A DNA stretch of 44,004 bases, from positions 1 to 44,004 of the forward strand of contig NZ_LKIR01000135.1 in NCBI RefSeq assembly GCF_001462205.1, read 5' to 3'. This document shows, piece by piece, positions 7,486 through 22,502 of this stretch (position 1 is its first letter; each line of letters starts with the position of its first letter). This stretch comes from Haloparvum sedimenti. GTDB lineage: Archaea; Halobacteriota; Halobacteria; Halobacteriales; Haloferacaceae. The translations under genes and the position numbers were made by a program. A model generated the notes under the pieces. The model saw nothing but the letters and a program-made list of their open reading frames with translations, did not search any database and had not been told where the DNA came from.

Positions 7486-7720
7486 AATCCTACGTCATGG
7501 GTGGGTGAGCCCGCGCATAAGCGTTGTCCTTGTCCCGGTGAGACGCCGCAGTCTCTCGGTTTCGACGCTCCAACGGCACGCTCGCGCGTCGGTCGCTGCA
7601 TGCCCGAACGTGGCCGCGGTTTCGTACAAAAGGGTTCGGCAGCGGACCGGAAGCGACGGGCGGCCGACCGCCGCGTGGCCGCGTACTGTCGCGGCCCACC
7701 GCGGTGCTGTGGCACGGTTG
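7486..7720. other. Intergenic spacer between rpa2 promoter and repeat R1
   Basis: The first 40 nt hold the rpa2 promoter (minus strand). The rest has no convincing gene. A TATA-like TACAAAAGGG near 7625-7634 on the plus strand is the only promoter-like tract; if used, it would transcribe into repeat R1 in the direction its wobble-paired hairpin favours. Confidence 0.35.
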
Positions 7721-7779
7721 CGGTCGGCGCGCGCGAGAAACGCGCGCGAGGGAGGTCGCGGGCCGGCCGCCTGCGGTGT

Positions 7780-7830
7780 CTCCGGCGCGCCACTGCACGC
7801 CGGAGGCCAGCGGGACGCGGTTTGTCCCGC
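7780..7830 (+). repeat. Twin-hairpin unit, copy A
   Basis: Hairpin 1: CTCCGGCG (7780-7787), 10-nt loop CGCCACTGCA, CGCCGGAG (7798-7805). Hairpin 2: GCGGGAC (7810-7816), loop GCGGTTT, GTCCCGC (7824-7830). It is flanked by TGCGG on both sides and sits at the tip of the GC palindrome of R1. The R2 copy lacks it at the same place. Confidence 0.85.
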
Positions 7831-7967
7831 GCTGCGGTTTCGCGGCCGGCCCGCGGCCGAGGATGGGGAGGTGCGAGGCCTACGGTGCGGAGCGGTGCGG
7901 GGTGGGACTGAAAGGGGCTGCCGGCTCGACCCGGCCCCGGCGCCTCAAGCACCGCAGCGAGCTGTGT

Positions 7968-8018
7968 CTCCAGCGCGCCACTGCACGCTGGAGGCTAGCG
8001 AGACGCGGTTTGTCTCGC
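7968..8018 (+). repeat. Twin-hairpin unit, copy B with compensating changes
   Basis: Same 51-bp layout as copy A. Hairpin 1 is CTCCAGCG / CGCTGGAG around the identical loop CGCCACTGCA. Hairpin 2 is GCGAGAC / GTCTCGC around the identical loop GCGGTTT. In each stem one G-C pair of copy A is an A-T pair here, with both strands changed, while both loops are unchanged. Confidence 0.85.
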
Positions 8019-8060
8019 CAAGCGGGGAGCGAGGAGCGCAGAGCGTGCCGCGGACGGTCG

Positions 8061-8191
8061 AGCCGGCTGGGGCTTTCTGGGTGGTGCTGTTCCAAACAGC
8101 AGGATCAACAGCATATACAGAAAACGCGTGGTAGGGAGAGCCGGCTGGGGCTTTCTGGGTGGTGCTGTTCCAAGCGGCAGGATCAACAGCA
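8061..8191 (+). repeat. Tandem duplication of the R1 3' end (two 53-bp units, period 78)
   Basis: Units 8061-8113 and 8139-8191 begin AGCCGGCTGGGGCTTTCTGG and differ at two positions. Each holds a hairpin: 8085-8101 is TGCTGTT-CCA-AACAGCA (perfect), and 8163-8179 is TGCTGTT-CCA-AGCGGCA, where both substitutions leave G-T wobble pairs on the plus strand. A 25-nt A-rich spacer separates the units. Confidence 0.85.
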
Positions 8192-8304
8192 GAGCCACAC
8201 AAATCGTAGCGGGAGTCGGCTGGGATTCACCGAACGTCTCACTCCCGATCAGCGGGGTCTACAGCCGAGTTCGAACCGCGGTTCAAAAAGTCGCTGCAGC
8301 CGGT

Positions 8305-13763: not shown

Positions 13764-14157
13764 CACGCGTGGGTATGTATCACACGTCCTAATAACCGTT
13801 ACTCCGGTTCCAGCGTCTCGAAACAGGTGGCGAGCGAGCCGCCGTCGGTCGCGCACGTCGCTTCGCCGGTCGTCCCACACCGGCGCGCGCCGCGGCGGCC
13901 ACGTCGCGCGTCGCCGCGACCGCGCGAGGTCGCCAGCGCGCTACTGCACGCTGGCTGCTCGAAAACCGCCGATTTTCGGCGGTGGCTGGGGAGGTGAGAG
14001 GCCGCCCTCGTCCGACAGCAGGTCCAGGACCCACCGAGCGACTGGCCGCGACGAACGGCGCTCCGCCGTCCCCTCGGCGATCGATCCGCACCGCCGCCGG
14101 TCCACTTCCACCCCGGAGGCATGAGGTTCATAGGTGATGGCGCCGAAGGGTGTCTCA
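13764..14157. other. Gap between the 42-aa gene and mcm, containing repeat R4 and mcm upstream region
   Basis: The left 40 nt hold the promoter of the leftward 42-aa gene. Repeat R4 is in the middle. The last 50 nt before mcm (AGGTTCATAGGTG) give a weak TATA-like tract, TTCATAGG, near 14126. No further gene is convincing. Confidence 0.5.
13919..14003 (+). repeat. Compact repeat R4 carrying a twin-hairpin unit
   Basis: R4 starts CGCGCGAGGTCG and ends GGCTGGGGAGGTGAGAGGC, matching landmarks of R1 and R2. Between them hairpin 1 is CCAGCG (13933-13938), loop CGCTACTGCA, CGCTGG (13949-13954), one loop base different from R1. Hairpin 2 is unrelated in sequence: ACCGCCG (13965-13971) against CGGCGGT (13977-13983). 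So the arrangement is kept while the second stem is replaced. Confidence 0.7.
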
Positions 14158-22187: not shown

Positions 22188-22467
22188 CTGCTGATCGGGA
22201 CAGCAACACCCAGAAAGCCCCAGCCGGCTCGACCCGCCGGGCCTCGCTGCGCGCTCGCGCCCCTCAGCACCGCCCGGCGCGAGTGCTTGCGTCGTCCGGG
22301 CGGGACCGAGCCGGCTGCCCCTTTCAGTCCCACCCCGCCCCGCTCCGCCCCGCACAGCACAGCAGCCTCACTCCTCCCCAGCCTCGGCCGCGGGCCGGCC
22401 GCGAAACCGCACCGCAGCCGGCCGGCCCGCGACCTCCCTCGCGCGCGTTTCTCGCGCGCGCCGACCG
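22188..22467 (-). repeat. Large dispersed structured repeat R2
   Basis: This is the simpler copy of the R1 family, in the opposite orientation. Read on the minus strand it has CGGTCGGCGCGCGCGAGAAA, the GC palindrome (22389-22400 with 22420-22431), GGCTGGGGAGG, GTGGGACTGAAAGGGGC, GCCGGCTGGGGCTTTCTGGG and the hairpin TGCTG-TCCCGAT-CAGCA. Neither twin-hairpin unit is present; the site where R1 carries copy A reads CTGCGGTGCGG. It fills the gap between divergent TPR and RNA-ligase-like genes and ends about 35 nt before the latter. Confidence 0.85.
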
Positions 22468-22502
22468 CTTTATCGGCCCGGGCGCGCTACTGTGGGGCGA
22501 CC

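Follow-up and report, generated by a model that had tools for sequence, protein, structure and literature searches.

The window analyzed here, a stretch of 44,004 nucleotides of the Haloparvum sedimenti genome, carries on its plus strand (7720 to 8204) a copy of a multi-hairpin repeat, here termed LR, that was delimited by 88 blast matches in the same genome, by alignment with a second copy in the window, by its tail repeats and by its fold. This copy is composed of P1, a large P2, a conserved linker, a P3 domain with a closing stem and two tail repeats of about 78 nt. The P1-type hairpin (GGCGCGCGCGAGAAACGCGCGCG, 7720 to 7749, plus strand), identified by sequence and fold, is followed on the same strand by the P2 hairpin (7754 to 7858; inverted repeat I13, 94% complementary), the conserved core CGAGGaTGGGGAGG...GGGTGGGACTGAAAGGGGC (7858 to 7923; R2, E=1.5e-14), the P3 domain (7910 to 8077; inverted repeat I7, 82% complementary), the closing stem of which is formed by GAAAGGGGCTGCCGGCTCGACC and GGTCGAGCCGGCTGGGGCTTTC and has a homologous paired stem in a related genus, and the two tandem tail repeats (GAGCCGGCTGGGGCTTTCTGGGTG...; 8049 to 8204; repeat D6, 82% identical). 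The same order, with P1, P2, the linker CGAGGcTGGGGAGG...GGGTGGGACTgAAAGGGGC, a long P3 and an often tandemly repeated tail, describes LR in general; other copies present alternative versions of P1 that carry a nested hairpin, and the number of tail repeats differs both between copies and between genomes. The second copy in the window (22188 to 22468, minus strand; inverted matches I1 to I4, alignment, and R2 with E=1.3e-14) is an empty site, and a degenerate LR at 13880 to 14005 on the plus strand consists of P1 and a truncated core, with P2 missing (sequence, and an R2 match at 13984 to 14005 with E=8.5e-4).

The first LR copy harbors two 51-bp units, at 7780 to 7830 (unit A, in the loop of P2) and at 7968 to 8018 (unit B, within P3), each of them made of two hairpins. 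As the preliminary description had it, the loops, CGCCACTGCA and GCGGTTT, are the same in both units and each stem differs by one full base pair; the five differing bases amount to two paired G-C/A-T changes, at pair 5 of hairpin 1 and pair 4 of hairpin 2, and one unpaired C/T change in the linker, and the units, their loops and the paired changes all lie where they had been placed. Both strands of the two units fold as two hairpins, with z-scores of -3.7 to -5.1 that beat nearly all shuffled sequences. Comparison of filled and empty sites sets the exact limits of the inserts at 7779 to 7834 and 7967 to 8022, 56 nt each, both on the plus strand. Insert A (89 bits with the covariance model R1, also supported by its fold) is flanked by CTGCGGTG on the left and CGGTTTC on the right, with hairpin 1 at 7780 to 7805 and hairpin 2 at 7810 to 7830; insert B (88.7 bits with R1, its filled/empty comparison being made among copies of the own genome) lies between GCTGTG and CGGGGAG, with hairpin 1 at 7968 to 7993 and hairpin 2 at 7998 to 8018. 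Searching for the 16-mer core of the unit with up to two mismatches retrieves three sites in the window against 0.19 expected by chance. A third twin-hairpin unit, of the related type M4, lies at 13930 to 13984 (plus strand), where GCGCGAGG is followed by TCGCCAGCGCGCTACTGCACGCTGGCTGC, a second hairpin and a GGTG end, and both its plan and its insertion site are those of the inserts of related genomes. It is recovered by R1 with E=2.3e-6 even though no M4 sequence entered the model, and this link between a model built solely from A/B-type units and an M4 unit connects the two types.

Some 40 copies of this insert of about 50 bp are spread over the H. sedimenti genome. A 72-nt query yields 41 matches and R1 at least 31 (E<=0.01) and, once matches are read in register and one overlap is removed, 43 sites can be distinguished, 26 of them uninterrupted and 17 interrupted by a unit of a further type, M3, which is always nested at the same point within hairpin 1 and measures 56 nt in 16 copies and 54 nt in a single degenerate one. 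Eight of the 43 sites belong to type M4, which starts with TCGCC where the A/B type has TCTCC. For the A/B type, the left junction reads G[C/T][G/T]TG^TCTCC wherever the flank is known, with one exception (GGCG), the left flanks being GCGGTG, GCTGTG or GCGTTG in all but the GGCG copy and one copy beside an assembly gap. Runs of exactly ten N occur inside LR hairpins at several loci of this genome (L009, L011 and L015, for instance) and cut some unit copies; here the palindromes seem to have led to gaps in the assembly. The genus is represented by this one genome, and copies within it are not independent of each other.

The unit had been proposed to be an insertion because the repeat reads straight through elsewhere, and the second LR copy does read CTGCGG-TGCGG without it when the two are aligned. 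Many other LR copies contain one unit, both or neither. Dozens of host copies with and without a unit in the own genome, together with filled and empty orthologous sites in related species, confirm that the unit is an insert. The suggested likeness to a small non-autonomous mobile hairpin is supported by the same comparisons.

From the sequences compared, the unit appears to be one lineage's member of a wider haloarchaeal family of twin-hairpin inserts of 49 to 56 nt that share the plan G^TC[G/T]CC, hairpin a, GC linker, hairpin b and, mostly, a TG end. The consensus of its relatives, G^TCGCCGGC, loop, GCCGGCTGC, two bases, a perfect hairpin b of variable sequence and again TG, recurs in other genera. 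In the sister genus g21, which is probably Halorubrum given an LR match in a Halorubrum plasmid, up to 40 copies per genome fit the exact pattern, against 0 to 3 for a reversed-pattern control in the same genus. The relatives inspected in genome G147 occupy LR-type sites on both strands (GCGCGAGG^GAGTC, GGTGGCG^CGTGCC and GGGGCAG^CCGCGAGG), and several sites hold units of opposite orientation. At orthologous LR copies, the GGTGGCG^CGTGCC site is filled in G125 and empty in G113, G153 and G155; the difference is a clean 49 nt with no target duplication, and the neighboring gene of G113 is 95% identical. Applied to other genomes, R1 gives no strong but only weak matches, among which at least L127 (G008) and L130 (G122) are true relatives on reading; hairpin b of the G008 and G122 units (GCGAGACGC.. 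and GCGAGAGC..) resembles hairpin 2 of the units in the window. In GTDB contigs, the exact pattern, which covered the G-C form of pair 5 and was run on records from which the own genome may be excluded, retrieved single matches in unrelated GC-rich bacteria only, and these were read as chance.

The host of these inserts is itself an abundant, apparently undescribed chromosomal and intergenic repeat of about 250 nt. The 88 blast matches translate into an estimated 45 or so LR sites in the H. sedimenti genome, and one 3.0-Mb genome of the sister genus contains 222 candidate copies, of which 40 were scored and all 40 match. Of 392 genomes examined in the class, 111 contain the LR core, and these represent 26 of the 86 genera sampled. 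On the extrachromosomal side it occurs in three plasmid records only, no phage record searched contains it and the exact core pattern is absent from IMG/VR, results on which a viral origin was rejected. Only tRNAs reach the gathering threshold of Rfam, and a lax search of five loci gave no gathering-score match inside the element; the literature consulted, outside of which fall the subscription journals, neither describes LR nor prints its sequence strings. According to a simple ORF scorer, LR usually adjoins the 3' end of a gene in both G125 and the own genome. With a simple gene call based on codon composition, none of 31 LR cases in G125 lies between divergent genes, against about one quarter expected by chance, and a simple gene call places five LR calls of the own genome between divergent genes. 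Beside one conserved gene, LR occupies the same place and orientation in some 20 of the orthologous loci that were inspected, indicating that it is old at that site and is not hopping rapidly. Of 32 G125 copies, 23 have a TATA-like box 13 to 23 nt upstream of the point where LR starts, against about 0.03 expected per copy. In the G125 loci L192 to L221, the forms TTTATA, CTTATA and ATTTAAA are seen upstream of GGTGGCG, and the LR tail repeats also contain TTTATAA.

The paired substitutions between units A and B had been read as the mark of selection on structure, and this interpretation fared less well than the substitutions themselves. The paired changes are real and pairing holds throughout the genome, with 98.2% of cells paired among 23 distinct unit sequences and 18 cells changed on both sides against 5.2 in shuffles. 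These changes are, however, confined to three pairs, a number that shuffles reach in 105 of 500 cases, and 11 of the 17 stem pairs of the unit are invariant. Subtypes with the G-C form and with the A-T form are each seen in several insertion contexts. At the changed pair of hairpin 1, all 26 uninterrupted copies (26/26) have Watson-Crick partners, but only 13 of 17 interrupted ones do (Fisher p=0.019), the four others comprising three G.T and one A.C, so that Watson-Crick agreement loosens where a nested insert parts the arms.

In LR copies of the own genome, the arms of P2 are 96% complementary within a copy, and 59% if arms from different copies are combined; the corresponding values are 96% and 63% in other g21 genomes and 94% and 74% in G125. 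Such long-term pairing across many unlike stems argues that structure matters. Stems are also exchanged as wholes: both P2 arms have been replaced together between orthologous LR copies of G125 and G113, and a P2 hairpin of 35 nt that is common to loci L106 and L267 is exactly inverted in one relative to the other. Of the 13 types of loop triplet, 10 belong to reverse-complement pairs, where 2.5 would be expected. Since whole-hairpin exchange and inversion can generate compensatory pairs in one step, these pairs are not independent evidence for selection, and it is on these grounds (invariant pairs, recurring subtypes, stems swapped whole, an inverted 35-nt hairpin and the fall from 26/26 to 13/17) that the mark of selection on structure is left unsupported in the form first proposed. 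In P3, G.T exceeds A.C on the sense strand (22 against 8, p=0.016), as it does in the pooled data (39 against 17, p=0.005, uncorrected for shared descent), and the asymmetry of wobble pairs in P2 is not significant. Taken with the TATA-like box at fixed distance, the G.T excess in P3 leaves room for LR to have a role as RNA.

Several explanations can be weighed against these data. Structural selection that operates stem by stem within the 51-bp unit, the view initially put forward, would account for the nearly complete pairing, for the surplus of both-side changes over shuffles and for the existence of G.T intermediates, but the restriction of such changes to three pairs, the lack of independence among copies and the exchange and inversion of entire hairpins make it unlikely. 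That the same subtypes of paired change are encountered in more than one context, that agreement falls once the arms are parted, and that hairpins are inverted and a whole P2 replaced at an orthologous locus would all be expected if nothing but DNA mechanics were at work, with template switching, palindrome correction and ectopic gene conversion shaping sequences that have neither an enzyme of their own nor a function. We consider this doubtful as a full account, because the ends and linker are conserved across genera (TCGCC..GCTGC..TG) and the same G^TC junction is reused at unrelated positions in both orientations, which together point to sequence-specific insertion.

Alternatively, LR could be a functional non-coding RNA in which the twin hairpins are tolerated expansion segments, their pairing being kept by selection at the RNA level. 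The persistence of pairing in widely varying LR stems, the G.T excess of P3, which is expected if the sense RNA is selected, the upstream TATA-like box and the conservation of LR at one locus across most of the species examined are all in line with this possibility; it is nevertheless one to which we give limited credence, for exact hairpin inversion and wholesale exchange of arms are events at the DNA level, the wobble asymmetry of P2 falls short of significance, a start predicted from the TATA-like box would land inside P1 and LR has no Rfam match. Least probable of all seems single-strand transposition of the IS200/IS605 type, in which a Y1 (HUH) transposase would mobilize the unit, itself a PATE/REP-like derivative reduced to a minimum. 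The two subterminal hairpins, the lack of target duplication, a preferred 5' flanking G, the four Y1 genes of the own genome and the precedent of 52-bp terminal-only PATEs in Haloquadratum (PMC3119063) speak for it. Yet Y1 and unit counts are uncorrelated (rho 0.05, p=0.74), G122 has 40 units and no Y1 gene, several unit-rich, 99%-complete genomes also lack one, and the surroundings of 30 Y1 loci hold no unit-like or LR sequence except one LR-like 13-mer. Since copy numbers do not track, Y1 transposase was dropped as the driver.

The reading that we favor, and that we regard as likely when taken as a whole, is that the unit belongs, as a lineage-specific form, to a set of non-coding twin-hairpin inserts of about 50 bp that colonize fixed positions of LR. 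It builds on what is directly observed in the sequences, namely the architecture, the shared ends, the target positions, the occurrence in both orientations, the filled and empty orthologous sites, the nesting and the preserved pairing, along with the replacement of whole stems and the exact inversion of a hairpin. Such inserts would enter a few loop or junction positions of LR without target duplication, at times nesting in one another, possibly through a single-stranded folded form of both the unit and the host hairpin. Copies would then spread and be homogenized by gene conversion among LR copies. Both arms would change at once since copying and inversion act on the hairpin as a whole, and insertions disruptive to the fold of LR would be lost. 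The mobilizing enzyme is probably supplied in trans, and is not obviously a resident Y1 transposase. On the other side, neither an enzyme nor an excision product nor an act of transposition was observed. Most copies would also be accounted for by gene conversion alone, with no ongoing mobility once rare insertions had founded them and, at any single site, loss from an ancestral filled state may be the alternative to gain. A broader proposal, which we put forward only tentatively, is that LR, with copy numbers that reach into the hundreds, is an undescribed, class-wide structured chromosomal element and maybe a transcribed RNA. It would serve as the specific habitat of parasitic twin hairpins of about 50 nt that need no resident transposase, that move by recognizing folded single strands, and the arms of which would evolve in concert by inversion and conversion.

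The closest described elements are the SMR-A and PATE sequences of Haloquadratum. The SMR-A elements of Haloquadratum walsbyi (HqIRS42/43/55) measure about 110 bp, have prominent terminal inverted repeats and use PATEs and IS605 elements as their hosts, and their mobilization has been called 'enigmatic' (PMC3119063). Like them, the units studied here are short, non-coding, haloarchaeal and present in tens of copies, show no target duplication in filled and empty sites, and insert in a targeted way into palindromes of another dispersed element, in this case at hairpins and junctions of LR. They differ in their host, which is LR, in size (49 to 56 nt), in consisting of two adjacent hairpins and in their ends (TCTCC..GCTG/CAAG or TCGCC..CTG), which are not inverted repeats, the palindromes being two separate hairpins; SMR-A was compared by description only. 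As neither the length nor the terminal inverted repeats of SMR-A are found, membership is not claimed, although the behavior is alike. PATEs, palindrome-associated transposable elements, are defined by kinship to IS605-type ends (PMC3119063), and share with the units near-terminal palindromes and the absence of terminal inverted repeats and target duplication, but no IS605-end kinship was found for either units or LR in the search of Y1 loci described above. Small palindromic extragenic repeats that are sometimes nested or arrayed also bring to mind REP, BIME and REPIN sequences with their RAYT, including the CGTC-tagged REPs (PMC3733652); the units, however, have no constant GTAG or CGTC tag (their flanks read GAGG, GGCG, TTCG, GCAG and GGTG, among others), show no tie to a Y1/RAYT gene, which is uncorrelated with them and absent in several unit-rich genomes, and reside in LR, not in intergenic regions at large. 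With mitochondrial double-hairpin, or repetitive hairpin-forming, elements (PMC2800124) they have in common tandem hairpins, complementary substitutions between types and apparent mobility, a likeness that may be taken as analogy only, those elements being organellar and unrelated in sequence.

These results bear on covariation analysis in general, in that base pairs of multi-copy hairpins can be moved by exchange and inversion at the DNA level and are not automatic proof of selection on RNA. They also reveal a folded repeat, numbering about 200 copies in some Halorubrum-like genomes, that is unmatched by the RNA-family library and is the target of what seem to be tiny mobile hairpins, a system in which the movement of gene-less elements of 50 bp becomes directly testable.

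Further twin-hairpin-like modules are seen in the P3 domain of LR copies of the own genome (L007, L049 and L052, for example), with the sequences GACGCGAGAGCGAAGCACTCGCTAGTCTGAGACTTCGTCTCAGGCA, TTCCCGCGAGGAACGAGCGGGAG.. and GCTCTCGCGAGCCTGCCGAGCGAGAGTCAGC.., and given this variety LR would seem to be shared by several unrelated types of insert. A different twin-hairpin insert, TTCGAGACGCCAAAGGCGTCTCGCCATCACGAAAGGCGCAAAGCGCCTTTCGAA, lies in P3 at locus L108 of G147. Outside g21, genome G094 (genus g19) contains five copies of one identical TCGCCGGCACTTTGCGCCGGCTGC hairpin, which constitute a separate small expansion.
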